DNA of 18,568 bases from Desulfobacteraceae bacterium (GTDB lineage Bacteria > Desulfobacterota > Desulfobacteria > Desulfobacterales > SURF-15). Below the pieces are notes generated by a model, which ran no database searches, was not told the DNA's origin, and saw nothing but the letters and a program-made list of their open reading frames with translations. Every line of letters begins with the position of its first letter. The stretch's first letter is position 1. Shown piece by piece: positions 1,852-18,269 of the stretch. The position numbers were made by a program, and so were the translations under genes. The stretch lies in contig QZKK01000183.1 in the NCBI GenBank assembly GCA_003599475.1, positions 1-18,568 of the forward strand, given 5' to 3'.

Positions 1852-1934
1852 GTAAGCCCCGCCTCATCGAGCCGCCTTCAGCAATCATCGCAACTCGGAT
1901 GTTCCATCGATATCTTGAACCATTGGAGGATTCC

Positions 1935-2993
1935 ATGACACCGAAGCACTCGAACTTTCCACGGGTAACGATCGTCATTCCGGCCCGAAACGAAGAAGAG
2001 CACATCCGGGAGTGCCTGTCTTCCCTCCTGGAGCAGGACTATCCCGCCGACCTGCTGGAAATCGTGGTTATCGATGGGATGAGCGAAGACAGGACCGCCC
2101 AGCAGGTGCAGGAATTATCAACCCTGCACCCGCGGATAAAGCTTCTGCCGAATCCGCGGCGGATTATTCCTTCCGCTCTCAATATCGGCATCGCACAGGC
2201 CGAAGGTGAAATCGTCATGCGGGCCGATGCCCATACCCGTTACGAAAGGGATTACGTACGGCTTTCCGTAGAATTACTGCAAACGACGGATGCTGCCAAT
2301 GTCGGAGGAGTCATCTTCCCAATCGGGCGGGGGTTCATCGGCCGGGTGATTGCCGCCGCAGTCTGTTCCCCTTTCGGAATCGGCAATGCGTATTACCGCT
2401 TTGCCCGCAAAAGAATGTGGGTCGACACGGTGGCTTTCGGATGCTGGAGGAAAAAAACGCTGGTCGACCTCGGCGGTTACAACGAAAACTATTCCGCCAA
2501 CGAAGATTATGAATTGAACTACCGGCTACGGGCAAGCGGGGGGAAAATTTTGCTCGACCCCCGGCTCAAGTGCCAATATATCCCGAGAGATTCGCTGCCG
2601 AAAATCTTCCGGCAGTATTTTTCTTATGGACTGTACAAGGTCAGGATGCTTGCCCAATATCCCGAATCCATGGTGTTACGCCAGGCGGTAGCGCCGGTTT
2701 TCGTATTATGCCTGGCAGGGTCGCTGGCCCTCTCGCCCCTGACCTTCTGGCCTTTGGTTCTTCTGTCAGTCTCTTATCTGACAACCGGAGCGATTTTCTC
2801 CCAACGAACGGACTGCGGTCGAAATGTATTTCGCACGCTCACACTGCTCCTGACCTATTTGACCATTCATTGCGCGTGGGGAATAGGGTTCTTGTATGGT
2901 ATGAAAAGATTCGGTGTGCCGAAATTCCATAAGATTTACCCAATGAAACCGGTATCCGGTCCCAGCCCCGCCCCCGCACATGCCGATCGTTGA
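1935..2993 (+). CDS. Glycosyltransferase family 2 with C-terminal membrane segments (ExoA-like)
   Basis: 352 residues. The start at 1935 is chosen because GGAGG lies at 1925-1929; an in-frame codon further upstream lacks such a site. GT-A features run in order: VTIVIPARNEEEHI, then DGMSEDRT (D47), then a DxD-like RADAHTRYERD (D98), then NEDYELNYRLRASGG with a candidate catalytic base (E190/D191). Two C-terminal hydrophobic stretches (around AVAPVFVLCLAGSLAL and TLTLLLTYLTIHCAWGIGF) place it at the inner membrane, as in ExoA-type succinoglycan enzymes. It probably adds a sugar to a lipid-linked intermediate that the flippase at 6977 could export. Sugar identity cannot be read from sequence. 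Confidence 0.93.
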   Translation: MTPKHSNFPRVTIVIPARNEEEHIRECLSSLLEQDYPADLLEIVVIDGMSEDRTAQQVQELSTLHPRIKLLPNPRRIIPSALNIGIAQAEGEIVMRADAHTRYERDYVRLSVELLQTTDAANVGGVIFPIGRGFIGRVIAAAVCSPFGIGNAYYRFARKRMWVDTVAFGCWRKKTLVDLGGYNENYSANEDYELNYRLRASGGKILLDPRLKCQYIPRDSLPKIFRQYFSYGLYKVRMLAQYPESMVLRQAVAPVFVLCLAGSLALSPLTFWPLVLLSVSYLTTGAIFSQRTDCGRNVFRTLTLLLTYLTIHCAWGIGFLYGMKRFGVPKFHKIYPMKPVSGPSPAPAHADR

Positions 2994-3116: not shown

Positions 3117-4454
3117 ATGAAGAGGTTCTGTGAGATCCTGATTCTTATGGGCATCTTGGCGTTCGTTGCGCCGGTGTATCCGGCGCAAGGGGTGACCGTT
3201 ACCGATACCCTTTTTGTCCGATCTTCGAGCGGCGACGGTTACAACAAGCCTTATAACGGAACGGCGAATATCACAAGCACTTATGCTTACATCGGTAACG
3301 GTTTCCTCATCGGCTGGCGGTTTGAAGGAATTCCGATTCCACCCGGCTCGGCGGTGCAGGAGGCGACGCTGGAGGTCTTCTGTCACATCGGAGCGGATGA
3401 ACCTGTCAGTATCCGTTACGTTGGAGAGGCTGTCGATGGTGCAGCTCCTTTTTCAGGTACGGGTTATGATATGATCAATCGTCCGAAGACTTTCACAAGC
3501 CTCATCGATGTGCCTGGACCGTGGCTTACCATGGGCTGGAATGCAAGCCCGGATCTGTCCCCAATTCTGCAGGAGATCATCGACCGGCCGGGATGGAGAG
3601 CTGGAAACGCGGTCGCTTTCTTCGCCGAGGAGACCTCCGCCGCAGGCAAACGCGGGGTGTATATGATGGAAAAAGGGGATGCATATGCCGCGCGATTGCA
3701 TGTCACCTATACGATTTCCAAAATCGATTTCGATACGAACGGAGACGGCTCCCCGGACATGACGATGAAGGATGCCGACGGCGACGGGTACTTTGAATGC
3801 CCGGTCGGAAAGACCGAATACACGGGCACCCTGACGATCGACAAACCCCTCGAGATCATGGGGTTTCCCGCTACCCGAACGGAGACCCTGTTCAAAGGGG
3901 ACGGGTTCATGCTCAAAAATGGGGGGCAAATCATCAGCGATCTGACCTCGCCGATCGTCAGCAGCTATTTCCCCGGCCTGAAGGGGAACGACCTCCAGGT
4001 AGTTTCACGCGACTTCATCTGGATCCAGTACGGCGCCAAAATTCTTTTGGGCGGAGACTCCAACCAGGATTTCGACGGAGACGTTTATCTAGAAGCCACC
4101 CGTCCGGGTGCCGACGTGGAGGTTAAGGAAGATGCCCTTATCCACGGCCGCCATATCGATATGATCACGTATGGGGGAGCCGTCTCCCTGCGCCGAAATG
4201 CCGTTCTGCGCGGAAACTCTCATATGAAATTCCGTGCCAATCTTTACGGCGATATTCGACTCAATCGGGATGTTACCCTTCAAGCATCATCCGTCGATGG
4301 AGATTGCTTTATCACCTTTACCGTACAAGAAGGCGATCTGCATATGAATCGGAATATCTTCCTGAATGCCGATGTGATCGATTTCTGCGGCGTTCAGGGC
4401 AATATCTGGGATGACGGGACGGTGACCCTGACCGGAAAAACCGAATGCTGGTAA
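3117..4454 (+). CDS. Secreted protein: N-terminal beta-sandwich (DNRLRE-like), Ca-type Asp repeats, beta-rich C-terminus
   Basis: 445 residues. A signal peptide is clear: MKRF, a hydrophobic core ILILMGILAFVAPVY, and a likely cut near PAQG. Residues ~27-198 resemble the beta-sandwich domain of secreted and adhesin-like proteins, with the features 'GWRFEGIPIPPGSAVQEATL', 'INRPKTF', 'ILQEIIDRPGWRAGNAVAFF' and a closing 'ARLHVTY'. Residues ~204-225 (DTNGDGSPD, DADGDGYFE) are Asp-rich loops like calcium-binding thrombospondin-3/dockerin repeats. The rest alternates short polar and hydrophobic strands (for example LYGDIRLNRDVTLQ and GDLHMNRNIFLNADVI), which suggests a beta-helix or bactofilin-like stack. 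No PEP-CTERM, LPXTG or membrane anchor is seen. The stop overlaps the possible start of the next deacetylase by 10 bases. I infer an extracellular matrix or adhesive role. Confidence 0.8.
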   Translation: MKRFCEILILMGILAFVAPVYPAQGVTVTDTLFVRSSSGDGYNKPYNGTANITSTYAYIGNGFLIGWRFEGIPIPPGSAVQEATLEVFCHIGADEPVSIRYVGEAVDGAAPFSGTGYDMINRPKTFTSLIDVPGPWLTMGWNASPDLSPILQEIIDRPGWRAGNAVAFFAEETSAAGKRGVYMMEKGDAYAARLHVTYTISKIDFDTNGDGSPDMTMKDADGDGYFECPVGKTEYTGTLTIDKPLEIMGFPATRTETLFKGDGFMLKNGGQIISDLTSPIVSSYFPGLKGNDLQVVSRDFIWIQYGAKILLGGDSNQDFDGDVYLEATRPGADVEVKEDALIHGRHIDMITYGGAVSLRRNAVLRGNSHMKFRANLYGDIRLNRDVTLQASSVDGDCFITFTVQEGDLHMNRNIFLNADVIDFCGVQGNIWDDGTVTLTGKTECW

Positions 4455-5575
4455 AAGGGATCAACGCATCCGGCCCCCAAAATCCTTTCCCCACGTACAC
4501 CCGCTCGTACCGGTCGCCGATCCATCCGATAGCCGTGCACCCTTGCCTCAAACCGTTTTCAAGAGTCGTAAAGCAACTTCTCTGGATGAACGCCGGCATC
4601 TGTTGCCGCCTCTTTGAACGGCCGTCAAAAAACGGTTATCCGATTCTGCAATACCATTCCGTCAGCCCGCTCGAGCCGCACCAGCAGTGGTATATCCATC
4701 CCAGCCTGTCGCTTCATCCCAGGGATTTCGAAAGGCAGATGGCATTCGTTCGCAGGCGCTTCGAGCCCCTCCTCCTCGGTCAATTGCTGGGCCGCGTGCA
4801 GGAGGGCAGTTACGGGAGTAAACCCCTGATAGCGGTAACCTTCGACGACGGCTACCGGGACAATTTCATCCATGCGCTTCCGATTCTGCGCAAGTACCGG
4901 ATTCCGGCCACATTCTACCTGACCAGTGAGTGCATGGACGGCCGGGTCCCGCTCTGGACGACTGAACTGAGAGCGCTGCTCCTCAAGAGCAGCCGGTCTC
5001 GAATTACGCTGTCCACCCTGCAGTGCTCGTATCGGCTCGACGGACCGGCGTCGCGAATCGAGGCGATCCGTCACATCAAAGCACGGATGCTGAAACTCCC
5101 CCGCGACCAGCGGGAAAAAGCAATCGAAGAAATTCGCAGGGTTACAGCAGCAGACCGCCGCCATTTCGCATGGATGAAAATGGTCATGCTCGATTGGGAG
5201 CAGGTAGAATACATGTCCTGCTGCGGCATGGAATTCGGATCGCACACCATGACGCACCCCTCCTTGCCCCATATCCCCGCCGACGAGGCGCTTTTGGAGA
5301 TCGCCGGCTCAAAAGCCGCAATCGAGGCAAAGATCGGAAGACAGATCGTCCACTTCAGCTACCCCAATCCGGGAAACGTCCCTAACTTCAACAGCCGGAT
5401 CCGGAGGATGTTGAAAAACTGCGGATTCGTTTCAGCGGCGACATCGGTTCCCGGACGTTTTGTTCAAGAAGCGGATATGCTGGCGCTCAAACGCAAGGGG
5501 ATATACCGTCCTTATCATCAGAATCCGGCCGAATTTTTCTTCTGGATCCAACGTGAATCGCTCATACCTGCGTGA
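4445..5575 (+). CDS. Polysaccharide deacetylase (NodB/CE4 family)
   Basis: Up to 376 residues. CE4 motifs are in order: PILQYHSVS, motif 1 TFDDG (D134/D135), motif 2 SHTMTHPSL (H267-x3-H271) and motif 3 FSYPNPGN (from F304). The Asp and two His residues that bind metal are all present, so it is probably active in removing acetyl groups from N-acetyl sugars. The start is uncertain. ATG 4445 overlaps the previous gene, and residues 1-30 look poor; GTG 4535 or ATG 4586 would give a protein of more usual size, but none has a strong Shine-Dalgarno. There is no signal peptide from 4445. The next gene starts 17 bases after the stop, consistent with one transcript. It is a paralog of the fragment at 1-360. 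Confidence 0.9.
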   Translation: MLVKGINASGPQNPFPTYTRSYRSPIHPIAVHPCLKPFSRVVKQLLWMNAGICCRLFERPSKNGYPILQYHSVSPLEPHQQWYIHPSLSLHPRDFERQMAFVRRRFEPLLLGQLLGRVQEGSYGSKPLIAVTFDDGYRDNFIHALPILRKYRIPATFYLTSECMDGRVPLWTTELRALLLKSSRSRITLSTLQCSYRLDGPASRIEAIRHIKARMLKLPRDQREKAIEEIRRVTAADRRHFAWMKMVMLDWEQVEYMSCCGMEFGSHTMTHPSLPHIPADEALLEIAGSKAAIEAKIGRQIVHFSYPNPGNVPNFNSRIRRMLKNCGFVSAATSVPGRFVQEADMLALKRKGIYRPYHQNPAEFFFWIQRESLIPA

Positions 5576-5591
5576 AAGGAAGAGACTCCGC

Positions 5592-6794
5592 ATGAAACCA
5601 GAAATTGCTCAAAAACCGACCGCCGTCGTGTTGGGTCTCGGGCAAAACGGTCTTGCCACGGTCCGCGCGCTGGCGAGAAAGGGAATTCCGGTCATCGGCA
5701 TCGACCGCGATCTGAAGCAGTATACGGCCCGCACCCGGTACTGCAAGCGCCTGCACTGCCCCGATTTCAAAACCGGCACGGACTGGATCGAACGGCTGGT
5801 GGAATTGGGGCAAGCACTGCCCTGCAAGGGAGTACTCTTTCCTTCGGGGGATTTCAGCCTGCAGAAGCTGTCCGACCATCGGAAGCGTTTGGATCCTTAT
5901 TTTCACTTCACCTTCCCCGTAAAGAAAGTGGTCGACCTGTGTCTCGATAAGAGGGCGTTCTACCGGTTCGCAGCCCTCCACGGTTTTCCGATTCCGCAAA
6001 GCTTTTTTCCCGAATCGGACGGCGATTGGCGGGCAATCACAGACAGCGTTCGTTATCCATGCGTCGTCAAGCCCTATCAGCCGAGCCTTGGATGGCGCCG
6101 TATTTTCCCGGAACACAAACTGTTTGAAGTCGGCTCGGCGGATGCGCTTCTGAAATTGTCCCGCCGGATCCGGCAGCTTCATTCGGATCTTGTCGTTCAG
6201 GAACGGATACCGGGAAAGGATGACTCTCTATTTTTTTCATTGACCTATCTTGATTCGAACTCAAAACCGCTTGGCATGTTCACAGGGAGAAAGCTTCGGC
6301 AGCAGCCGCCTCAATCCGGAACCTCCAGCATGGCGGAAAGTCTGTGGCAGCCATGGATCGCCGATACGAGCACCGCACTGCTGCAGGCGATGGGCTACAC
6401 GGGGTACGGTTCGGTGGAATTCAAATGGGACCCTCGCGATCGAGCGTTTAAAATCATCGAAGTCAGCGCCCGCACATGGTTTCCGCATGGAGTCAGCGCC
6501 GCTTGCGGAGTCAATCTGGAGTATATTGCCTACTGCGATAAAACCGGGCTTCCGATCCCGCCGGCAAACGGATTCCGCCAGAAAGTGAAATGGATTCACG
6601 AAGAAAGAGATCTGCGCAGCAGCATCGCGTATCTGAAAGCGGGAAAGCTGACGCTTCCACAGTGGATATCCTCCTATCGGGGAGCACGCACATATGCCAT
6701 TTCCTGCCGGGACGATCCCGGCCCCGTGCTTTACCTGATGCTGCATCTGATCACCGTACCATGGCGCAGGGTGATCAGGAGCCTTGCCTGTTGA
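5592..6794 (+). CDS. ATP-grasp carboxylate-amine ligase family protein
   Basis: 400 residues. ATG 5592 is chosen because GGAAGAG lies 5-10 bases upstream and the Rossmann-like start (AVVLGLGQNGLATVRALARKG) follows at once; longer in-frame options run into the previous gene. The pre-ATP-grasp domain is followed by ATP-grasp elements: CVVKPYQP (adenine-contacting Lys), LVVQERIPGKDDSLFF, TGRKLRQ, and GYGSVEFKWDP...IIEVSARTWFPHG. Relatives usually end with E-(I/V)-N-x-R as the metal site; here Asn is Ser. The family activates a carboxylate as acyl phosphate and joins it to an amine. In this locus a likely role is attaching an amino acid to a uronic acid, or making a peptide-like substituent. The true substrate is unknown. 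Confidence 0.85.
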   Translation: MKPEIAQKPTAVVLGLGQNGLATVRALARKGIPVIGIDRDLKQYTARTRYCKRLHCPDFKTGTDWIERLVELGQALPCKGVLFPSGDFSLQKLSDHRKRLDPYFHFTFPVKKVVDLCLDKRAFYRFAALHGFPIPQSFFPESDGDWRAITDSVRYPCVVKPYQPSLGWRRIFPEHKLFEVGSADALLKLSRRIRQLHSDLVVQERIPGKDDSLFFSLTYLDSNSKPLGMFTGRKLRQQPPQSGTSSMAESLWQPWIADTSTALLQAMGYTGYGSVEFKWDPRDRAFKIIEVSARTWFPHGVSAACGVNLEYIAYCDKTGLPIPPANGFRQKVKWIHEERDLRSSIAYLKAGKLTLPQWISSYRGARTYAISCRDDPGPVLYLMLHLITVPWRRVIRSLAC

Positions 6795-6829: not shown

Positions 6830-6955
6830 TTGGCTACTTCATTTGAGAGATGAACGTCCAACTTCGAATGAAAAGACGAGTGATTCGTTATAAACGATGA
6901 AGCTGTATTTAACGTGCAACGTGCAACGAGTTCAACGCGCAACGATTTTTTAAGC
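6830..6955. repeat. Repeat-rich intergenic segment (inverted copy of the 409-450 unit, plus CGTGCAA heptamers)
   Basis: Bases 6848-6868 match the reverse complement of 430-450 in 20 of 21 positions. Bases 6911-6945 hold a period-7 run (GTGCAAC, GTGCAAC, then diverged GTTCAAC and GCGCAAC). The run of T at 6946-6951 follows it, but no strong hairpin precedes it, so I do not call a terminator. The segment lies between the ATP-grasp and flippase genes. Confidence 0.7.
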
Positions 6956-6976
6956 TCCGAACGCGGAACCCCTGGC

Positions 6977-8485
6977 ATGTATCTTCGGCTTAAAAAGCTA
7001 TTCAGTGAGTCATCCATCTATGCGGTAGGCAACTTCCTGCTGCGTTCCTTTTCGGTGATCACCATGCCGGTTTTCACCCGCTGCATGCCGGCGACACAGT
7101 ATGGAATCCTTTCCATCGTGCGCACCGTCAGAGACCTCGGCAGTGTGCTCTATGAAGCGGGTACTTCGGCTTCGTCGATGCGCTTCTACTACGATTGCCG
7201 TGATTCGGAAGATTTGAAACGATTGTTTTCGAGTCTATTCTTTTTTACCACCACCTTCAGCCTGGCCTGTTCTTTGGTGCTCCTTACGGTCGGCAATTTT
7301 TTCTGGAGCCGCGCCCTCAAGGACATTCCCTTCCATCCTTACGGCTCTCTGACCGTTTTCACGCTGCTGATGACCTCCGTCGGGATTCTGCCGCGGACCA
7401 TTTTTCGAGCCTTAGGCCAGGCAAGGCGCTTCGTCCTGATCAATCTGCTCCAGGCGTTGTCGATCGTTCTCCTCTCGATCATACTGGTCGTGGCATTCGA
7501 CATGGGGGCTCTTGGACCGATCCTGTCCACCTTCATCGTCTCGTGCGTATTCTACGGTGTCTTTCTCTATTATCTGGGACCTTATTTGAGCTTCTCCTTT
7601 TCCTGGAAAATCGTCCGCCAGTGTCTGGCGTTCGGCCTGCCGGACAGCCCGGTGCGTTTCGGCAACTGGGCGCTCAAAGTGGCCAACCAATTGATCCTGC
7701 AGTATTATCATCCTCTGGCGATTGTAGCCGTCTACTCCGTCGGCTTTTCGGTGGGCCACATCCTTTTCGATGTTGTGGTCACCGGCGTCCATTGGGCGTT
7801 TTTGCCTTTCTACTATGAAACCGCCAAAAGGGAGACGGAAATCGAGGCAAAGGAGATATTCGCCTATGTGGCGACCTATGATTTCATCCTGATTTCCTTC
7901 CTGACCCTTTTCACCATTTTTCTGGGCAGGATTCTCCTGCTGGTATTTGCCTCCTCGCTCTACGAGGGGGCAGAACCGATAGTGACAGTCATCGCCTTGT
8001 CCGCATTCTTTCAGTTTCTTTTCTTCATTCCCAGCCGAGGCATCTATGTGGTGAAAAAAACCGTATACATGCTCCCCCTCCTCCTGATTACCGTTGCCGT
8101 CAATCTTGGACTGGGTTTTTTGCTGATCCCGCACTACGGGGTGTCGGGAGCAGCCTGGGCAACGCTGATCGCCTATATGGTTCGCTGCTTTCTTACCCTT
8201 TTTGTCGCACAATGGATCTATCCGGTCCCTTATCAATACCTTCGTCTGGCCAAAGCAACCTTTGTTTTAATCCTCCTGCTGGCGGCAGGGAGCCGCCTGT
8301 CCGGTCTGCCTCTGCCGGTTGAGATTTCTGTAAAGCTCGCTCTGCTGTCCATGTTTCCCGTTCTTCTTTTTTTGCTGGGATTCTTTGAAAAACAGGAACT
8401 CGCCCGATTCCGGCTCCAGACCCGCACCCTTTCGCGACGAGTTTTGATGTTCCTGCCCGGCCAATCCGGGGGGTCACCGAATTAG
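6977..8485 (+). CDS. Oligosaccharide flippase (Wzx-like, MATE/MVF clan)
   Basis: 502 residues, very hydrophobic, with roughly 12-14 membrane segments spread over the whole length. The start (SESSIYAVGNFLLRSFSVITMPVFTRCMPATQYG) is the standard opening of Wzx/RfbX-type transporters. ATG 6977 is preferred over GTG 6914, because the extra 21 residues would be encoded by the repeat. No strong Shine-Dalgarno is visible. It should move undecaprenyl-linked repeat units to the outer face of the inner membrane, working with the neighbouring glycosyltransferases. A Wzy polymerase is not in the window, so the type of assembly pathway is not settled. Confidence 0.93.
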   Translation: MYLRLKKLFSESSIYAVGNFLLRSFSVITMPVFTRCMPATQYGILSIVRTVRDLGSVLYEAGTSASSMRFYYDCRDSEDLKRLFSSLFFFTTTFSLACSLVLLTVGNFFWSRALKDIPFHPYGSLTVFTLLMTSVGILPRTIFRALGQARRFVLINLLQALSIVLLSIILVVAFDMGALGPILSTFIVSCVFYGVFLYYLGPYLSFSFSWKIVRQCLAFGLPDSPVRFGNWALKVANQLILQYYHPLAIVAVYSVGFSVGHILFDVVVTGVHWAFLPFYYETAKRETEIEAKEIFAYVATYDFILISFLTLFTIFLGRILLLVFASSLYEGAEPIVTVIALSAFFQFLFFIPSRGIYVVKKTVYMLPLLLITVAVNLGLGFLLIPHYGVSGAAWATLIAYMVRCFLTLFVAQWIYPVPYQYLRLAKATFVLILLLAAGSRLSGLPLPVEISVKLALLSMFPVLLFLLGFFEKQELARFRLQTRTLSRRVLMFLPGQSGGSPN

Positions 8486-8553
8486 ACTCTCCGACCCAGC
8501 AACTACGGGATGGAATCCACCTTTTCATCACCCAACATTTGAAAGGAGTCACC

Positions 8554-9504
8554 ATGCAAAAAGCACATCGTTCCCTCAGTTTTTTCATTCGGTTGATGCT
8601 TATTTCGGGCTTGATCGCCACAGGGCTGCCGGGAGCCGCCGGTGCCGCAAGCTGCAGCGAGATCGATCATACCGGCCCGGCGGTGTCGATTACATCGCCG
8701 ACATCGACCGGGGCCTATGAGACCACGGCAGATACCATCACCCTTTCCGGCGAAGCAATGGAGAATTGCGGCCTCCAGATGATCCGTTGGTCCGTCGATG
8801 GCCAGGCAGGGGTTCAACTCGCGTCGGGTCAAACCGACGACTGGGGCGTCTGGTCCTGGCAGGCAAAGGATATTGAGCTTGCAGAAGGCTTGAACCGCAT
8901 CGTAGTTGCGGCTGAAGACGCCGCAGGCAACCTGGGCGAAACATCCATCGATGTGACCTATACCCATTTCGTCCCCCCGCCTCCTCCGGCCGGAGAAACC
9001 GGCCAACTGAGTCCCAAACAGGCAAAATTCACTTTCTATTTCGGAGGGGAGGGCTACGAAGACCTGGACCGCTTCAGCGTCGTGAGCTACCTGAAGAAGC
9101 AGGCCGATGAAAAATTCATGATGCCTTTTGACCAGGACGTAACAGTCACAGTTCATGTGTCGGGGATCGGGGAACAGGAACCCATTTTTTCGCAAACCAT
9201 ACCTGCCGGCTCCGTTGCAGGCACTTCCAAATACCGCTACACCAGTTATTCAGGGGTCCGTGATCTTACCTTGATGAATGCCACAAGCACCTCTGTGTAC
9301 ATGTATGTTTTTGTCGACAAATGGAACTTCTTGCCAGAATTAAGAAACGACTTGAGCCCCGAAGCCTATCGGGCCAAAATTCAGGAAATCGACAGCTTCA
9401 CCATCACCCTGGAGATGGGATCCGACAAAACCTGGCAAGGATCGGCTCCTCTAAAGGTCAGCATTTTCAACGATCATAAACAGGAACTCCACTATAATCG
9501 ATAG
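8554..9504 (+). CDS. Secreted protein with Ig-like domain, Pro hinge and unknown C-terminal domain
   Basis: 316 residues. ATG 8554 is supported by AAAGGAG at 8542-8548. A signal peptide is clear (hydrophobic LMLISGLIATGLPGAAGAAS, cut near residue 31). Residues ~40-142 look like a bacterial Ig-like domain of the type found in adhesins and glycanases (GPAVSITSPTS, ITLSGEA, WSWQAKDIELAEGLNRIVV, AAEDAAGNLGE). PPPPP at ~148 is a hinge. The remaining ~165 residues form a domain I do not recognise, with FTFYFGG, YLKKQADEKF, DQDVTVTVHVSG and PLKVSIFNDHKQELHYNR. No enzyme motif or cell-wall anchor is visible. It is probably an extracellular binding or structural protein matched to the polysaccharide; this is an inference from context. 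Confidence 0.78.
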   Translation: MQKAHRSLSFFIRLMLISGLIATGLPGAAGAASCSEIDHTGPAVSITSPTSTGAYETTADTITLSGEAMENCGLQMIRWSVDGQAGVQLASGQTDDWGVWSWQAKDIELAEGLNRIVVAAEDAAGNLGETSIDVTYTHFVPPPPPAGETGQLSPKQAKFTFYFGGEGYEDLDRFSVVSYLKKQADEKFMMPFDQDVTVTVHVSGIGEQEPIFSQTIPAGSVAGTSKYRYTSYSGVRDLTLMNATSTSVYMYVFVDKWNFLPELRNDLSPEAYRAKIQEIDSFTITLEMGSDKTWQGSAPLKVSIFNDHKQELHYNR

Positions 9505-9589: not shown

Positions 9590-12500
9590 ATGAAATTCAT
9601 GAGTTGCTATGTTCACCTTTTTGGATCCTGCATGCGGCGGCTCCTTCCGCCGCTGGGCCGGGCTCTCACTGCAAAAACCTTTATCGCAAGGAATCCTTCC
9701 GGGGTTCCTGAGAATTCCATCGTATTCTTTCCGCTTTCTTCAAATGTCCTGGCCTGTGGTCTCGTCGGAATCGTGGCCTTCAAGCCCCGGGCGGATATCG
9801 GAGCGACAGATGATTTGATGTTCATGGAAAAACTCGTTTCCCGTATCGAAGAGACCAGCCCTGAAGCCGGAGAGCCCGGCGAAGATGAAACCAGACCGGG
9901 AGCAAAAGAAAACCGAAGCGACGGCGGGCTGCACCTGTTGGAATCCGGCCCGATCGATCTGCTGTCCAGGGAAGCTTTTGTCCTGAAAAACAGTCGCCGT
10001 TTTTTCGAAGTATTTCGGAATCGCCGCAGTCAGGTTCGGCTGGAAAAAGTGATCCTCCGATTGGGGGAGGTCATCCGCCGGGAGGAAGCCTTTTTCAACA
10101 AGAATATGGGGAATCTGAGCACCGCCCAGGCTTCGATAATATCGCAGCGTATTGAAAACCTGAAAGACATCTCTTGGAGCCTTTCGAGGGAAATTCTCGA
10201 CAATGTCGTAAAGGTCAAAGAATTCCTGGGAAAGGCGGAGGCTGCAGCCCCATTTGAAGCAGTACGCCTCTTCAAACTGATCAATGCAACACTTAACAGC
10301 CTCGACCGCCTCGAAGTCCGGGGCCGCGATTCGGCGGGTATTTCGATCATGTTCAGCTTGCCAGAAAATGAATTCAAGCGCTTCACGGACGAACTGGACC
10401 GATCCGGACCTCAGGGTTTGCCCGAGCAGTGGAAAGAGCGCTTGAACCGCGAGGTGCTGGTCAACCGGGATATCGGACTATCTGAAAAAAACGACACCGG
10501 GGTTCATCTAATCCTGACTTATAAGGTGGCCGCCGAAGTCGGCGGCCTGGGCGACAACATCGCTTTTCTTCGAAAAGAACTCGCATCCGATGAAATTCTA
10601 AGACGCTTGGCTTGTCTTTCCTACGAAAGCTTCACGCTTTCAGCCCATACGCGATGGGCTTCGGCAGGGGCGATCACCGAGCCGAACTGCCATCCGGTAG
10701 ACAACGGCTGCAGCGAAAGCCGCCCTTTCTCGAAGTCGAAAATCCATGTCTGCCTGAACGGAGACATCGACAATTATCAGGAGCTCAAGCACCGGTTCGA
10801 AGAAAACGGAAGCCGCATCCCCTGCGAAATTACGACAGACACAAAAATCATACCCCTCCAGATCCAAACCTATATCGATCTGGGATACGGCATCGCTGAA
10901 GCTTTCCGATTGGCGGTCAACGACTTCGATGGATCGCACGCAATCGCCATGCTCACCGATTTGGCTCCCGGAAAGCTGTTTCTGGCGCAAAAAGGGAGCG
11001 GCCAGGCGATTTTTATCGGCCTGGCCCAGGACCATTACATTCCTGCTTCGGAAGTTTACGGGTTTGTGGAAGAGACACCGTTCTATCTGAAGATGGACGG
11101 TGAAAAAACGGTCGACGGAAAATCCGGTAAAATCAAGGGTCAGATCTTTATCCTCGATCCGGAAACAGACGATGCTCTGAAAGGGATCCAAGCCGTTTAT
11201 TATGATGGTACTCCGATTGGACTCAAACCGCAGGACATCAAATGGACCGGAATCACTTCCCGGGATATCGACCGCCAGGGATTTCCTCACTACTTTTTAA
11301 AGGAAATCAGCGAGTCCCCGGCCTCGGTCGAAAAAACCCTCGCCAACCGATGGAAATTTTCCCCAAACGACCGCAGACTCAGAGTCGTTCAAATAGATGA
11401 AACCGTGATTTCTCCGAAACTCGAAGAGGCACTGCGAAAGGACAAAATCCGGCGCGTATTCTTTATCGGCCAGGGCACGGCCGGAGTTGCCGCCACAGCC
11501 TGTGCCGATATTTTCAAATATCATCTGGATGATCCCTTGCTGCCGGTTACAGCCGTCAAAGCCTCAGAAATGAGCGGATCCATGCTCAAGAACTTGGACG
11601 ATACCCGCAGCCTGGAAGATACCCTGGTCATCGCCGTTTCCCAATCGGGAACCACCACAGATACCAATCGAACCGTGGACATGGTCCGTCAACGAGGCGC
11701 CTATACCCTGGCCATTGTCAATCGAAGGGATTCGGATCTTACATTCAAGGTCGATGGGGTCATGTATACTTCAAGCGGCCGGGACATCGAAATGTCGGTG
11801 GCCTCTACGAAGGCATTTTATTCCCAAATCGCGGCAGGTGCGCTGATCAGCCTTCACATCGCCGGTCTGAAAGGACGACGAAGCGAGGAGTTCATCAGCG
11901 AAGAAATCAGGCACTTGCTCATGCTGCCGTCGGGGATGCAGAAAGTCTTGGCCATGCAGGAAAAGATCGCTGCGTCTGCCGGGCGGCTGGCGGTTTCAAG
12001 GCTGTACTGGGCCACGGTCGGCAGCGGTCCGAACAAGGCCGCCGCAGACGAGATTCGAATCAAACTCAGTGAATTGTGCTATAAAACCATTTCCTCCGAC
12101 TACATCGAGGACAAGAAGCACATCGACCTGTCTTCAGAACCGCTGATTCTGATCTGTGCGGCAGGTGCCGGTCCGACGGTCATCGGCGACATCATTAAGG
12201 ACACAGCGATTTTCAAGGCGCACAAAGCCGCCACCGTGATCATCGCCGACAAAGGCGAAGACCGGTTCCTCCCCTATGCCGACGATCTGTTCCATGTGCC
12301 GCGAACACTGCCGCACCTGGCACCGATATTCAACACCCTGGTCGGGCATCTTTGGGGATATTATGCCGCATTGGCCATTCACGAGAGTTCAATTTTTCTA
12401 AGCGGCTTCCGGGAAGAGCTGCATAAAATGCTGCAGGCTTACGCGCGGAAAGGGTTGAACACTTATGAAGTGGTCCTGGAGAAATCCTTCCGTGAAAAAA

Positions 12501-13408
12501 TCCTGACCTTCTATACGGAACTGATCCGGCGGCGCAACGAAGAACGGCTGCCTGGCATCATCGGCCTGCGCCCGGTCTCGGATCTTATGCTGCTGCTGAA
12601 ATACCTTGCCGGCCGTCTTCCAGTATCGGATTTCGAGATCGATTTCGGAAGGAAGGGGACCGCCATGGACATGCTTGAGATCCTGTTCGAATGCCTAGGC
12701 AAATCGATCAATGCGCTTTCGCGTCCGGTGGATGCCATCAAGCACCAGGCCAAAACCGTCACCGTGGGGACCAGCCGGATCGACGAAAAGTTCGACGGCG
12801 CGGTCTTCTCGACTCTGGCTGCACACCGGATCGGTCTGGGGCGGTTGACCCATCAGAATGTCCTGGTTTTAAAAAACCTCCAGGGAGTGATCTCTGCAGT
12901 CAACGGCTCGATACTCTACCGGATCGAGGGGCTCGATCTTCTCGGCCAGCCGACCGAGGAGACAAAGATTGCAGTCGTTCGCAAGGAGGGGCTGCTCCAA
13001 TCGCTCTCATCGAGGGTGGAGAAAAGCCCCATGCTCAGGGGAACCAAACGAATCATCGTCTGTCAGGGAAACGTCTATATCGGCAAAGGACTGGAAGACG
13101 GCAGAAACATTCTGATCGTACCGGTGCTTTCGGATGATTCCGCCGCTCCCAGAAATATTTCCCGACTGCTGCTGCTCAATGTCTCGTTCAAAGAGAAGGC
13201 CCCGCTTGAGGCGATCGTCAAGGCTCTCGGAGGAAAGTACGACCATATCAAAAATATCGTACATGAGAATAACATTTCCTGGCAGGATCAAATACTGGCC
13301 CCCTTCCCCCTCGAAGATCTTTTCGGCAGATCCGCCGAAAAGATCGCAGAATCCATCATGACGATCCATGGCAAACCGCAGGAGCACAAAAGGGTGCAGG
13401 CGGCCTGA
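9590..13408 (+). CDS. GlmS-like glutamine amidotransferase / double-SIS isomerase with large insertions
   Basis: 1272 residues, about twice canonical GlmS (~610). ATG 9590 follows AGG by 6 bases. Glutaminase hallmarks are present: CGLVGIVAF (Cys56), RGRDSAG (~247), HTRWAS (R355), LNGD (N390) and TDTK (D417). The isomerase half carries SIS1 with GQGTAG, SQSGTT (684-689) and VASTKAF. SIS2 carries K825, E828 and H844, spaced as K485, E488 and H504 of E. coli GlmS, and AKTVTVG (K1055) matches the tail holding K603. GlmS makes glucosamine-6-phosphate from fructose-6-phosphate and glutamine. Extra pieces are ~160 residues between Cys56 and DSAG (mostly helical), ~110 residues before K1055, and ~215 residues after it, the last of unknown fold. 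Cys56 would need propeptide removal to act as the N-terminal nucleophile. A likely role is supplying amino sugar to this locus; a modified acceptor is possible. Confidence 0.88.
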   Translation: MKFMSCYVHLFGSCMRRLLPPLGRALTAKTFIARNPSGVPENSIVFFPLSSNVLACGLVGIVAFKPRADIGATDDLMFMEKLVSRIEETSPEAGEPGEDETRPGAKENRSDGGLHLLESGPIDLLSREAFVLKNSRRFFEVFRNRRSQVRLEKVILRLGEVIRREEAFFNKNMGNLSTAQASIISQRIENLKDISWSLSREILDNVVKVKEFLGKAEAAAPFEAVRLFKLINATLNSLDRLEVRGRDSAGISIMFSLPENEFKRFTDELDRSGPQGLPEQWKERLNREVLVNRDIGLSEKNDTGVHLILTYKVAAEVGGLGDNIAFLRKELASDEILRRLACLSYESFTLSAHTRWASAGAITEPNCHPVDNGCSESRPFSKSKIHVCLNGDIDNYQELKHRFEENGSRIPCEITTDTKIIPLQIQTYIDLGYGIAEAFRLAVNDFDGSHAIAMLTDLAPGKLFLAQKGSGQAIFIGLAQDHYIPASEVYGFVEETPFYLKMDGEKTVDGKSGKIKGQIFILDPETDDALKGIQAVYYDGTPIGLKPQDIKWTGITSRDIDRQGFPHYFLKEISESPASVEKTLANRWKFSPNDRRLRVVQIDETVISPKLEEALRKDKIRRVFFIGQGTAGVAATACADIFKYHLDDPLLPVTAVKASEMSGSMLKNLDDTRSLEDTLVIAVSQSGTTTDTNRTVDMVRQRGAYTLAIVNRRDSDLTFKVDGVMYTSSGRDIEMSVASTKAFYSQIAAGALISLHIAGLKGRRSEEFISEEIRHLLMLPSGMQKVLAMQEKIAASAGRLAVSRLYWATVGSGPNKAAADEIRIKLSELCYKTISSDYIEDKKHIDLSSEPLILICAAGAGPTVIGDIIKDTAIFKAHKAATVIIADKGEDRFLPYADDLFHVPRTLPHLAPIFNTLVGHLWGYYAALAIHESSIFLSGFREELHKMLQAYARKGLNTYEVVLEKSFREKILTFYTELIRRRNEERLPGIIGLRPVSDLMLLLKYLAGRLPVSDFEIDFGRKGTAMDMLEILFECLGKSINALSRPVDAIKHQAKTVTVGTSRIDEKFDGAVFSTLAAHRIGLGRLTHQNVLVLKNLQGVISAVNGSILYRIEGLDLLGQPTEETKIAVVRKEGLLQSLSSRVEKSPMLRGTKRIIVCQGNVYIGKGLEDGRNILIVPVLSDDSAAPRNISRLLLLNVSFKEKAPLEAIVKALGGKYDHIKNIVHENNISWQDQILAPFPLEDLFGRSAEKIAESIMTIHGKPQEHKRVQAA

Positions 13409-13659: not shown

Positions 13660-14730
13660 ATGCTCTCGTTGTCTGAACATCCGGTGCTGGTCACCGGGAC
13701 TGCCGGTTTCATCGGTTTTCATTTGACTTCAAAGCTGATTGAAAAAGGCGTGCAAGTTGTCGGTTTAGACAATTTGAACGACTACTACGATGTTCAATTG
13801 AAAAAAGACCGTCTCGAGCAACTGGAAAGACATCCTGATTTTTCCCTCCAGCGGCTGGATCTAACCGACCGGGTGGGGGTGAGCACGCTCTTTGCCCGGC
13901 ATGATTTTGAGGTGGTGGTTCATCTGGCCGCCCAAGCCGGTGTGCGCTACTCTCTCAGCCACCCGCATGTCTATATCGACAGCAACATTCAAGGTTTCCT
14001 GAACATTCTGGAAGGCTGCCGCAGTTGCCGCCAAATCAAACATCTGGTTTTTGCATCCTCGAGCTCGGTCTATGGGGCGAACACGGCCCAGCCCTTTTCC
14101 GTTCATCAGAACGTGGACCATCCCCTTTCTCTTTATGCGGCAACCAAAAAGGCAAACGAGCTCATGGCCCACACCTATGCCCACCTGTACGGAATTCCAG
14201 CGACAGGGTTGCGCTTTTTCACCGTCTACGGCCCTTGGGGACGACCGGATATGGCTCTTTTTCTCTTCACCCGGGCGATGCTTTCCGGAAAACCCATCCA
14301 GGTGTTCAATTACGGAAACATGAAACGGGATTTCACCTATATCGATGACATCGTGGAAGGCATCCTGCAGGTCATGGTTCGCCCGCCCCAACCGGACGCC
14401 CAGTGGAGCGGTGCACGCCCGGACCCCGGCAGCAGCCCCGGACCTTACCGCATCTACAACATCGGCAATAACCGGCCGGTTGAGCTCATGGAGATGATCG
14501 GAGTGCTGGAAAAGTGTCTCGGAATCGAGGCCAGGAAAGAATATCTGCCGCTGCAGGCCGGCGACGTGCCGTCCACCTATGCGGACATCGACGATCTGAC
14601 AAGGCTCTTCGGTTTCAAACCGAAAACCACAATCCACGAGGGAATACCGAATTTCGTCCGCTGGTATCGAGCTTACTACGGCGAAAGGATGGTCGGTGAG
14701 GAAGGTTTGTGCACCGCTGTTGCCGTTTGA
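13660..14730 (+). CDS. UDP-glucuronate 4-epimerase (extended SDR family)
   Basis: 356 residues; AAAGGAGG at 13643-13650 fixes the start. NAD-binding TGTAGFIG (G13, G16, G19) is followed by GLDNLNDYYDVQLKKDRLEQL, a signature I associate with UDP-GlcA 4-epimerases rather than GalE. Later landmarks are LAAQAGVRYSL, SSSSVYG (133-139), Y159-x3-K163, GLRFFTVYGPWGRPDMALF, DFTYIDDIV, YNIGNNRPVELM and GDVPSTYADIDDL. It should interconvert UDP-GlcA and UDP-GalA in the cytoplasm. The asparagine-synthase-like gene begins 39 bases downstream, which suggests the uronate may be amidated. The UDP-uronate preference comes from motif recognition and was not tested. Confidence 0.92.
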   Translation: MLSLSEHPVLVTGTAGFIGFHLTSKLIEKGVQVVGLDNLNDYYDVQLKKDRLEQLERHPDFSLQRLDLTDRVGVSTLFARHDFEVVVHLAAQAGVRYSLSHPHVYIDSNIQGFLNILEGCRSCRQIKHLVFASSSSVYGANTAQPFSVHQNVDHPLSLYAATKKANELMAHTYAHLYGIPATGLRFFTVYGPWGRPDMALFLFTRAMLSGKPIQVFNYGNMKRDFTYIDDIVEGILQVMVRPPQPDAQWSGARPDPGSSPGPYRIYNIGNNRPVELMEMIGVLEKCLGIEARKEYLPLQAGDVPSTYADIDDLTRLFGFKPKTTIHEGIPNFVRWYRAYYGERMVGEEGLCTAVAV

Positions 14731-14769
14731 CTTTTCCGACGCTGACGCGAACGGCATTTGGAGAAAACA

Positions 14770-16551
14770 ATGGCCAAACTCGTTTTGATAAGCCACAGAG
14801 ACGGCAGGATCAGGGAGAATTTCCGCGAGGAGGCGGAACATCTCTCCCAAAGGCTTACCCCCGACAACATCCCGCATGCTGCACCGGCAATGATTGTAAG
14901 CGGAGGTATTCACATCGCCGTATTCGGGGAAACGGCAGCAATATCGCTGAAAGAAACCGGCGTAGCCATGGGGCATCTTCATCACCCCGACAAGAGCTGG
15001 TTCAGACCCGGCGAGGAAACGCCGGAGGGGTCTTTCGCGTTGTTCAAAGCGGACCGCCGATTCATCGAACTGGCCACCGATATCGTCGGATCGAGAACCA
15101 TCTGGTATGCACAGACCCCGGAAGTGTTTATCGCTGCAACCTCACAGCGTGCTCTTGTGTATTTCCTGCAGTCCTTCGAACCCAACGAGGAGGCTTTTGC
15201 ATGGATGCTGTCTGGAGGCACCCTCGGGCCGGGGTTGTCCTGGGACCGGCGTGTGCGATTCCTTCCACCCAACAGCCGCCTGCTGCTGGATCGTTTCTCC
15301 TGGAGCCTTTCGTTGAATATCCTGCCGGCTGTTTTCGAACCGGAGCCCCTGTCGAAAAGAGAGCATCACAGGGTTCTTGAGAAGCAGATAGAAGACGTCC
15401 TTCAGGAGGTTAGTTTCGATCCCGAAAAATGGGTGCTTCCTCTGTCCGGCGGGTATGACAGCCGGCTGCTGCTTTTGCTGCTCAAAGACCGGTTCCCGGC
15501 GATCAAATGTGTCACCTGGGGCAGGGATGGGGCTTTGTCTCAGAAATGGAACGATGCGCAGATTGCACAAGACCTGTGTCGAATGCTGAATGTAAGGCAT
15601 GACTATTTCGTAACAGAAATATCGGTAGAGTCCATCGAGAAGGTATTTGGAAGGTTTTTGACAGCCGGAGAAGGAAGAATCGATCACCTGGAGCCCTACC
15701 TTGACGGTTTCTTTGTCTGGAAACACCTGTCCGAAAAAGGGGTAAAAGGGATCATCCGCGGAGACGAGTGCTTCGGCAGTCGGTGCCTCTATTCGGAGCT
15801 TGATTTTCGCAAATTCGTTTTTGCCACGATGATCTCGGATTACGCTGAGCTCAGGGAAATGGATCTTCCCGCCTCCTTTGGCCAGACATGGCCGGAAAGG
15901 TTGAGAGCCCGAAAGGACGAGACGCTGGAAACCTGGCGGGACAGACTCTATTGCGAATATTACTTTGCCCACGGTCTTTCCGCGCTGAATGACCTGAAAC
16001 TGAGCTACGTCGAGATCATGAACCCGCTCATTTTCAGAAGGATCGTTGAAAGAGTCAGGAAACTCCCGGACAGGCTGCGAACCGAAAAAATTCTTCTAAG
16101 AAAAATCGTCGAGCGCCGCACCCCCAATGTGCCGTTTGCAAAGTATCCGGCCATCGATTTGCGAAGGGATTACTTGAAGGGGAAAGAGGTAAGGGAATTT
16201 TTAAACGATCAGCTTTTTTCAGCCCCCTGCCGGACGGTGCTGCCTCATTCACTGATTTCGAAGATCATGGAAAATCTCAACAACAATCATTCCGGCGGCG
16301 TCACACAGCGGTTTCCCATTATCCGAACCCTCCGCCCCTTTTTCCCGCCTCCGGTCATAAAAATGATTAAAAAGACGCTTTCCCTGGAAGAGCGAATCGA
16401 TTATTTCGATCTGGCACTTCGTTCCTGTATCGTCGGCAGTATGACTGCCCTGCTTTCCCGGGATGCCCGGGAGCTTGCCGAAATATACAAACCCAAGCGG
16501 ACTATTCATGCGCCATCGGAAAATCATTGTCCAGTAGAGCCCGCCCCGTAA
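14770..16551 (+). CDS. Asparagine-synthase-like ATP-dependent amide/amine ligase lacking the glutaminase cysteine
   Basis: 593 residues. ATG 14770 is supported by GGAG at 14760-14763. The C-terminal half is an asparagine-synthase fold: PP-loop LSGGYDSR (S226-R232), FPAIKCVTWG and GIIRGDECFG. The N-terminal ~200 residues keep the later part of an Ntn-glutaminase fold (GSFALFKADRRFIELATDIVGSRTIWYA and VFIAATSQRAL). However, the protein begins M-A-K instead of M-C-G, so the nucleophile is absent. It probably uses free ammonia or an amine rather than glutamine, with the substrate carboxylate activated as an acyl-AMP. Sitting beside a UDP-uronate epimerase, it may amidate a uronic acid, as proposed for WbpS-type proteins of O-antigen loci. 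Other AsnB homologs make lactams or lasso peptides, but no precursor peptide is seen. Confidence 0.85.
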   Translation: MAKLVLISHRDGRIRENFREEAEHLSQRLTPDNIPHAAPAMIVSGGIHIAVFGETAAISLKETGVAMGHLHHPDKSWFRPGEETPEGSFALFKADRRFIELATDIVGSRTIWYAQTPEVFIAATSQRALVYFLQSFEPNEEAFAWMLSGGTLGPGLSWDRRVRFLPPNSRLLLDRFSWSLSLNILPAVFEPEPLSKREHHRVLEKQIEDVLQEVSFDPEKWVLPLSGGYDSRLLLLLLKDRFPAIKCVTWGRDGALSQKWNDAQIAQDLCRMLNVRHDYFVTEISVESIEKVFGRFLTAGEGRIDHLEPYLDGFFVWKHLSEKGVKGIIRGDECFGSRCLYSELDFRKFVFATMISDYAELREMDLPASFGQTWPERLRARKDETLETWRDRLYCEYYFAHGLSALNDLKLSYVEIMNPLIFRRIVERVRKLPDRLRTEKILLRKIVERRTPNVPFAKYPAIDLRRDYLKGKEVREFLNDQLFSAPCRTVLPHSLISKIMENLNNNHSGGVTQRFPIIRTLRPFFPPPVIKMIKKTLSLEERIDYFDLALRSCIVGSMTALLSRDARELAEIYKPKRTIHAPSENHCPVEPAP

Positions 16552-16892: not shown

Positions 16893-18269
16893 ATGAGCTG
16901 CAAAACGAATTTCACGTCCAAGATGCTGTTGGGTTTGGCGATCTTTTCGCTGTTGATCATTGCACCAACCACCGCATCCGCCATTGAGTACCGCCTGGCG
17001 GACTTTATGATTCTGGTCGACGATCAGCTCATCATCAAGGGGGCTGCGGATGTGATCAGCTTCCAGGGGGGGATATTTCAGAACAAACAGATGCGGAGCG
17101 ACCTGGGGAGCCGCAACTTCGCCCAGATCGGCGGAAGACTCAGCTGCCGGATTCCCGTTGATGCGCCCACGGTTGCCGATGTGGCCATCATCGCCCCGAA
17201 CGTGACCCTGGGGAATTTCGCCAAGGTGAGTCATGTCATCTACGATGCCGCAACAGGGTCGTTCAACGACATCGGCACCTCCGGAAGACTCGGCCCTACC
17301 CTCCTTGAAAACGATCTTGGGAACAACAGTCTGAACGACACCGGTTTTAAGAATCTGCCTGATTTCCCGGCCTTTCCCGTGTTCGCTCCCGGAGCGGCCG
17401 ATGTGATCGTCCCGTCGGGCGGAGTCACGAGCATCACACCGGGCAATTACCGGGATCTGATCGTAGGCCACAAGGGGACGGTAAACTTCGCATCCGGCAT
17501 CTATAATTTCAGGAGGATCATCATCAATGTTGCAGGTGAATACAATCTGATCTTCGAAGACGATACGGAGATCCGGGTCAAGCAGTTTGTCCGCCTTGCC
17601 GAATACGGCAACGTCAACCCGACATCGGCGAACAATGTCATCATGTATGTGGAGGGGGAAGACGGCGACTACGGCGGGGCCAACAGAAACCAGGATGGAG
17701 TCTACGGCCTGCCCGCCGCCTTCGAGTATGACGGGGACGGGAATTTCAGCCTCTGCTTTGTCTTTGTCCCAAACGGCACCATGAACATTCGCGGGCATAG
17801 CCAGCCGCCCTATGCCACCCAGTGGCTGGGAAAGTCCTTCCAGCAAATTTCCTCGTTGCGGATCATTCTCCAGCAGGCCATCGAGAGCTGTATTCCGCCC
17901 GGCATCGACTGCGCCTGCATCACCGACTTCACACGCCGGAGCGATGGTACCCTGCAGGTCAGGGGGATCAATCTCTCGGAGGATACCGTCGGGAAGCTGG
18001 CCATCTTCACCGAAACGGCCGTTGCCGGCATCGGGGGCCTGACGGGAGGAGACGCCGGTGCGGACCAGGCTGCGACGGATCTCACCTTCATCCCTACAGA
18101 CCGGTTCAATACGGATAACAACGTGGTTGCAGCACTCGCTGCAGGGCATACTTCAGGAGACAAGTTCTTCCTTGGCATCATCTACCCCGAAGTGCCTGAT
18201 CCAGTAACTGGCTTCCCTTTCGTTCCCGGATATTGCATCCTTACTGGAAAGCTTCTGGAGCTTCCTTAA
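16893..18269 (+). CDS. Secreted beta-rich protein (bactofilin/ice-binding-like repeats)
   Basis: 458 residues, start supported by AAAGGAGAG. The signal peptide is MSCKTNFTSK, a hydrophobic core (MLLGLAIFSLLIIA), and TTASA with a likely cut at residue ~30. The middle part has the feature set of secreted beta-solenoid-like proteins with 'GxYxxLxVGxxxTVNFxSGxYNFRxI' (here ITPGNYRDLIVGHKGTVNFA and SGIYNFRRIIIN). It continues with EDDTEIRVKQFVRLAEYGNV and FVFVPNGTMNIRGHSQPPYATQWLGKSF. The last ~120 residues (from CITDFTRRSDGTLQVRG) look like a separate beta domain. No enzyme motif and no sorting signal are seen. Context points to an extracellular matrix or surface protein. Confidence 0.78.
   Translation: MSCKTNFTSKMLLGLAIFSLLIIAPTTASAIEYRLADFMILVDDQLIIKGAADVISFQGGIFQNKQMRSDLGSRNFAQIGGRLSCRIPVDAPTVADVAIIAPNVTLGNFAKVSHVIYDAATGSFNDIGTSGRLGPTLLENDLGNNSLNDTGFKNLPDFPAFPVFAPGAADVIVPSGGVTSITPGNYRDLIVGHKGTVNFASGIYNFRRIIINVAGEYNLIFEDDTEIRVKQFVRLAEYGNVNPTSANNVIMYVEGEDGDYGGANRNQDGVYGLPAAFEYDGDGNFSLCFVFVPNGTMNIRGHSQPPYATQWLGKSFQQISSLRIILQQAIESCIPPGIDCACITDFTRRSDGTLQVRGINLSEDTVGKLAIFTETAVAGIGGLTGGDAGADQAATDLTFIPTDRFNTDNNVVAALAAGHTSGDKFFLGIIYPEVPDPVTGFPFVPGYCILTGKLLELP

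Follow-up and report, generated by a model that had tools for sequence, protein, structure and literature searches.

A double-length family of GlmS-like proteins with a leader ahead of the catalytic cysteine, and its member in a polysaccharide locus of a Desulfobacteraceae bacterium

Glucosamine-6-phosphate synthases of the GlmS/GFAT type (EC 2.6.1.16; TIGR01135; PDB entries 2j6h, 1jxa and 6zmk) combine, within one chain, an Ntn glutaminase and two SIS subdomains. Through GlmS, sugar is committed to the synthesis of cell wall and polysaccharide. The present analysis deals with a GlmS-like protein of twice the usual size, hereafter the giant, encoded on an 18,568-nucleotide stretch of DNA from a Desulfobacteraceae bacterium (contig QZKK01000183.1 of assembly GCA_003599475.1), hereafter the window. 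The giant shares with GlmS/GFAT the order of the catalytic motifs and a fold that matches over both halves, but differs from them by its double length, by a score under the curated cut-off, by a leader before the catalytic cysteine, by insertions A to C and by a domain beyond the C-tail. The reading that we favour, and regard as probable, is that of a glutamine-dependent glucosamine-6-phosphate synthase that belongs to a distinct double-length, propeptide-bearing family and feeds the polysaccharide locus in which it is encoded.

The Ntn glutaminase fold of the giant is also that of PurF (glutamine phosphoribosylpyrophosphate amidotransferase) and of glutamate synthase, some members of which are made with a propeptide ahead of the cysteine; unlike the giant, these enzymes have no SIS half and carry out a different acceptor reaction. 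Database entries of 1212-1296 amino acids (aa) from Desulfobacterales and relatives, deposited as 'SIS domain-containing protein' or 'glucosamine--fructose-6-phosphate aminotransferase', are of the same family as the giant, but they are named by similarity only, and the window's copy differs from them by its polysaccharide-locus setting. Glutaminase and SIS motifs are likewise joined in one chain in another type of long GlmS-like protein (1486-1521 aa; L083:2720-7285 and L084:1693-6153, L numbers designating loci and G numbers genomes), which has Met-Cys at or near the predicted start of its open reading frame and is likened to the giant by its motifs; frames of 1511-1535 codons in G004, G005, G018, G019 and G020 match TIGR01135 piecewise. 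An experimental study of the giant family was not found by title or by the start of the abstract among the papers listed from the open-licence PMC literature, which does not amount to absence from print.

A GlmS-type core and its added segments

The giant corresponds to a frame of 1276 codons without stop when counted from GTG 9578, ATG 9590 being the likelier start given the GAGGTG upstream of it. Residues are numbered here from GTG 9578 and therefore exceed by four the numbers of an earlier note made on this DNA. The GlmS equivalog model of NCBIfam, TIGR01135, matches the giant with 223 bits (E 6.6e-66), under its curated cut-off of 418, and a phmmer comparison with E. coli GlmS gives 5.5e-22; judged on sequence, this likeness is far beyond chance.

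The motifs of the glutaminase and isomerase halves follow one another as C60, DSAG 251, HTRW 357, NGDIDN 394, TDT 420, SQSGTT 688 and ASTKAF 742, with the isomerase residues E825/K829/E832, H848 and K1059. Counterparts of all the catalytic residues of E. coli GlmS (C1, R73, N98, G99, D123, K485, E488, H504 and K603) are carried by the giant as C60, R359, N394, G395, D421, K829, E832, H848 and K1059, and these positions are invariant in 76 of 76 aligned giants. The stretch from C60 to D251 spans 191 residues and that from E832 to K1059 spans 227, against 28 and 115 in E. coli GlmS, and 217 residues lie beyond K1059. The earlier note's description of a GlmS-like protein with these motifs and spacings, including a tail of about 215 residues, is thereby confirmed. 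Furthermore, profiles and structure comparison place the Ntn glutaminase fold and the two SIS subdomains within one chain, and the structure prediction and superposition which that note had proposed gave AlphaFold models with an unbroken core and, for each catalytic half, a match to E. coli GlmS and human GFAT. A chance similarity or a broken core is ruled out by the profile score, the invariant residues, the intact model and the fold match.

The segments added to this core total about 600 residues and are not present in the two enzymes, from E. coli and human, with which the giant was aligned. Neither of the outcomes that the earlier note named as refuting its view, extra segments common to ordinary GlmS or a broken core in the model, was thus obtained. 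The three added regions of the earlier note are all real but were an undercount, two more being apparent from the alignments: a leader of about 55 residues before Cys60, and about 64 residues between DSAG and HTRW, which stand 106 residues apart in the giant and 42 in E. coli GlmS. A Pfam search of the leader, of residues 119-246 of insertion A, of insertion C and of the C-terminal domain returned nothing over the cut-off (insertion B was not searched), the weak best matches being CENP-R (E 0.038), BIg21 (E 0.088, in a relative) and DUF6869 (E 0.16), and no PDB sequence matched the C-terminal-domain profile at E <= 10. GlmS and further proteins of SIS or Ntn type took up the Foldseek and VIA lists, with queries that were not the added segments alone, so that these may still have a known fold, and one GlmS-like family of unknown function was matched in PHROGs. 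In a protein search, the C-terminal-domain profile retrieved 420 proteins, and the 120 listed measure 215-440 aa; the named ones among them are called fructose-6-phosphate aminotransferase, several marked 'partial' and many on short contigs. Such standalone matches appear to be giant-derived fragments, and a separate family with this domain was not seen among the 120 listed. A role in assembly or regulation is probable for the helical insertions and the C-terminal domain.

A leader ahead of the catalytic cysteine

A conserved leader precedes the cysteine in 63 of the 68 readable loci, the cysteine being internal and without a start codon before it, which points to removal of the leader. Among the five scored loci that do not have it, four begin with Met-Cys and one (L043) starts at a contig end; another 12 of the 80 loci were left unscored, being truncated or having the cysteine outside the search pattern, and four of them (L007, L008, L039 and L061) show the leader by eye. 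The residue preceding the cysteine in 64 leader-bearing proteins, the window's included, is C (32), S (15), N (7), F (3), Y (2), P (2), Q (1), G (1) or A (1), and never Met, so that a start codon at this place cannot supply an N-terminal cysteine. The catalytic cysteine must therefore probably be uncovered by cutting off the leader. According to PMC9140057, the nucleophile of enzymes in this superfamily is exposed at a new N-terminus through autoproteolysis.

In the model, confidence dips under a predicted local distance difference test score (pLDDT) of 50 directly before Cys60. The first stretch of the leader, roughly cut for this computation, has a net basic character in 60 of the 64 proteins, and its amphipathicity exceeds that of its shuffled versions in 19 of the 64 at p < 0.05 and in 35 at p < 0.1 (median p 0.08). 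Since Met-Cys is found in 5 of 6 further distant or divergent members, the leader looks, from this comparison, to have been acquired within the giant family.

In the mechanism proposed, the leader of about 55 residues would be cut off by (auto)proteolysis before Cys60, Cys60 would hydrolyse glutamine, the ammonia would be handed to the SIS half, and fructose-6-phosphate would be converted to glucosamine-6-phosphate by isomerising amination at K829/E832/H848/K1059. A more elaborate picture, doubtful as a whole, would make of the giants a zymogen lineage of GlmS: the basic, often amphipathic leader helix would dock the precursor at the membrane or at a partner, the cut before Cys60 would switch on local hexosamine synthesis, the extra domains would be feedback or assembly modules, and one copy would have been recruited as the polysaccharide locus's own amino-sugar supply.

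Distribution of the family and of canonical GlmS

A protein search with the giant scored 7,996 candidates, 7,995 of them at E <= 0.001, and the best 119 listed besides the window's own protein measure 1212-1296 aa, are 55-75% identical to it and cover 96-99% of the query. The whole architecture is common to thousands of proteins, a point that the earlier note had missed. The genome scan confirmed 148 relatives, of which 80 loci were retained; they lie for the most part in metagenome assemblies whose titles read Desulfobacteraceae, Desulfobacterales or Deltaproteobacteria, Syntrophaceae, Smithella and one Aminicenantes being represented as well. Distant members of 1175-1230 codons, which keep the key residues, were matched in 8 of 149 genomes from the phylum of the Aminicenantes genome. 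The window's protein fits the family by its C-terminal domain, its insertions and its length (range about 1170-1320 aa), and departs from it at 3 of 244 near-invariant positions, defined as columns with an occupancy of at least 80% and an identity of at least 97% across 83 others, none of the three being a catalytic residue. A separate alignment gave one difference in 239 such columns for the giant of L028 and six for that of L090, the window's 'P59-' difference there being a trimming artefact. The architecture is thus real and conserved, and marks a family of its own. Genome G358 holds a second full-length giant (L085:2107-5877) outside any polysaccharide locus seen, its metG/DegT copy being L086, and two C-terminal-domain matches, some partial, occur in nine of 241 genomes.

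The giants and canonical GlmS were found to be nearly mutually exclusive. TIGR01135 was matched over its cut-off in none of 20 giant-bearing genomes, where no giant itself reaches 418 bits, versus 14 of 14 controls. Among 247 genomes from the phylum of G001, canonical GlmS occurs over the cut-off in 203 and the giant's C-terminal domain in 31: both are found in one genome (G179), the giant alone in 30, canonical GlmS alone in 202 and neither in 14. Canonical GlmS is hence missing over the cut-off in 30 of the 31 genomes with the giant versus 14 of the 216 without (Fisher p 9e-27, kinship ignored), the assignment per genome having been read from best E-values with a sum that agrees with the tally of 203. 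In the order of G002, 225 of 241 genomes have the giant and six canonical GlmS, the latter found in 5 of the 16 without the giant and in 1 of the 225 with it (G480), with neither in 11 (Fisher p 4e-6). Canonical GlmS is also over the cut-off in none of the eight giant-bearing genomes of the Aminicenantes genome's phylum. The genome samples (20 plus 14 controls, 247 and 241) overlap, and a completeness filter was requested whose values are not displayed.

The neighbours of the giants go in the same direction: metG, pyrG or eno are present in 55 of 80 related loci (those of L081 being confirmed by NCBIfam), and a gene like the acyltransferase half of GlmU in 18 of 84, directly before the giant in L071. 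This fits, without proving it, a housekeeping role in the synthesis of UDP-N-acetylglucosamine. Only 2 of 32 genomes with a giant pass the GlmU profile TIGR01173, yet no more than 9 of 14 controls do so, which makes it a marker less clean than hoped. GlmU is apparently split in many giant-bearing genomes into a frame of 250-340 codons for the N-terminal half and one of 410-480 codons for the acyltransferase half, often at most 5 kb from the giant (L071:8523-9905 is an example). Being the sole GlmS in most of the sampled carriers, the giant is likely the housekeeping enzyme there, and the family seems to be a housekeeping stand-in for canonical GlmS in many sulfate-reducing and syntrophic bacteria.

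The polysaccharide locus and the weighing of readings

The window's copy lies among glycosyltransferase, deacetylase and flippase genes (Table 1), which bears out the earlier proposal of an amidotransferase of GlmS type, its active-site residues conserved, in a polysaccharide locus. That note, right on anatomy and setting, was not right in tying the additions to the setting: giants beside metG, pyrG or eno, such as that of L081, are built alike, and an adaptation of the additions to the polysaccharide locus is rejected.

Table 1. Features of the giant gene and of the surrounding locus in the window.
Feature	Position	Strand	Basis or remark
Glycosyltransferase family 4	484..1851	+	PF00534; kept in L028
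Glycosyltransferase family 2	1899..2993	+	PF00535; kept in L028 and L090
445-aa protein, locus marker	3117..4454	+	No Pfam or NCBIfam match in profile searches
Polysaccharide deacetylase	4445..5575	+	PF01522
ATP-grasp protein, start uncertain	5460..6794	+	PF02786
Polysaccharide flippase	6914..8485	+	PF01943
Ig-like domain protein	8539..9504	+	PF17957
Giant GlmS-like gene, 1272 aa	9590..13408	+	Frame of 1276 codons from GTG 9578; profile and phmmer matches
Leader, residues 5-59, predicted helix and two short strands; presumed propeptide	9590..9754	+	63/68 readable loci; model
Cys60, presumed glutaminase nucleophile	9755..9757	+	Invariant 76/76
Insertion A, residues 68-246	9779..10315	+	Mostly helical in model
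Region of insertion B, residues 258-352, exceeding its E. coli counterpart by about 64 residues	10349..10633	+	Motif positions, alignment
Rest of glutaminase half (HTRW, NGDIDN, TDT) and linker	10637..11317	+	Profiles, alignment, fold match
Isomerase half, two SIS subdomains (SQSGTT, ASTKAF, K829, E832, H848)	11375..12373	+	Profiles, alignment, fold match
Insertion C, residues 933-1044, helical in model	12374..12709	+	E. coli GlmS alignment ends at residue 932
GlmS C-tail with K1059 (AKTVTV)	12710..12769	+	Invariant 76/76; structure-aligned range extends to residue 1062
C-terminal domain, residues 1065-1276, alpha/beta in model	12770..13405	+	Family-specific as far as seen; model and profile searches
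NAD-dependent sugar epimerase/dehydratase	13660..14730	+	PF01370; kept in L090, not found in L028
Asparagine-synthase-like protein	14758..16551	+	PF00733; kept in L028 and L090
458-aa protein	16893..18269	+	Kept in L028

L028 alone among 84 loci has at least two of the window's locus genes, namely ten at 60-80% identity, with a giant about 75% identical to the window's, and its genome, G002, holds a second giant of housekeeping type beside metG and pyrG (L081). G179, the single one of the 247 genomes with both kinds of GlmS, has its giant in a locus of this kind (L090), with eight flanking genes at 38-67% identity. The giant of the locus is thus an extra copy in both genomes where this could be checked, and the window's copy is probably likewise an additional one, serving the polysaccharide locus. 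Such a locus is rare in the genomes sampled, the 445-aa marker being found in 1 of 241 (G002) and in 2 of 247 (G179, and G035 with a partial match); pieces of this marker recur within frames of 893-1016 codons on the same contig in G002 and G179. The trees place the window together with L028 and P0003, a group with a support of 1.0 and a long stem. The asparagine-synthase-like protein does not start with Met-Cys, so that its glutaminase half may be inactive; among NCBIfam models, that of a macrolactam cyclase subfamily matches it best, below the cut-off. An Rfam scan of the window at the gathering threshold returned no element, hence no glmS ribozyme was seen there.

Several points weigh against a glucosamine-6-phosphate synthase dedicated to this locus. 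The giant scores under the curated cut-offs of both GlmS models, 239 bits against 381 for the second profile in addition to TIGR01135, and in the phmmer alignment A635 and A363 face E. coli Ser303 and His77, residues that have a role in that enzyme. A635 is invariant across the 76 aligned giants, housekeeping-type copies included, and so does not single out the polysaccharide-locus copy. Cys60 is internal in the precursor, and a free N-terminal cysteine would need cleavage; the formation of glucosamine-6-phosphate, the substrate and the cleavage are all predicted. Both G179 and G480 hold a giant together with a canonical match, that of G480 being a partial frame of 329 codons. Since genomes with neither kind of GlmS over the cut-off exist (14 of 247 and 11 of 241), a missing canonical GlmS proves little for any single genome; incompleteness, fragments or another route may explain the 14 (G027, G048, G052, G077, G096, G101, G103, G181, G184, G189, G197, G238, G257 and G258), among which G184 and G189 have strong matches under the cut-off. 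Finally, L090 does not join the window's clade with support, so that a single origin of the locus copies is not established, and a second GlmS in the window's own genome is presumed.

This last point leaves room for the giant to be the organism's only GlmS, lying by chance beside polysaccharide genes; a second copy cannot be shown in that organism, but both searchable genomes with the locus have another GlmS (a giant in G002, a canonical one in G179), which makes this unlikely. Another keto-sugar phosphate could be the acceptor, yielding a rare amino sugar for the polysaccharide of the locus, as the epimerase and deacetylase genes and the replacement of Ser303 by A635 might suggest. With the family-wide invariance of A635 and the few departures of the window's protein from the near-invariant positions, this is improbable. 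It is very improbable that the leader is kept and the glutaminase half silent, the enzyme using free ammonia or acting as a deaminase like NagB-II-type SIS proteins: the cysteine is indeed internal in most loci and the NagB-II model NF046059 matches the SIS half (60.5 bits, E 1.7e-16, under its curated cut-off of 430), but an invariant Cys60, R359, N394, G395 and D421 would be unexpected for a dead site, and related giants have Met-Cys. An assembly fusion of unrelated genes, for which size alone speaks, is refuted by the 119 other listed full-length homologues.

Proteins of this family are already in databases under names given by similarity; the computations show a match in fold, conserved residues, extra segments throughout the family, near-exclusion with canonical GlmS and a conserved locus, whereas activity, substrate, cleavage, the role of the extras and dedication to the locus are predicted. 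In one order, 225 of the 241 genomes sampled hold this double-sized enzyme, almost never with ordinary GlmS; it pairs a leader before the nucleophile with about 600 residues beyond ordinary GlmS. The presence of one copy in a polysaccharide locus suggests that it was recruited as a dedicated source of amino sugars.

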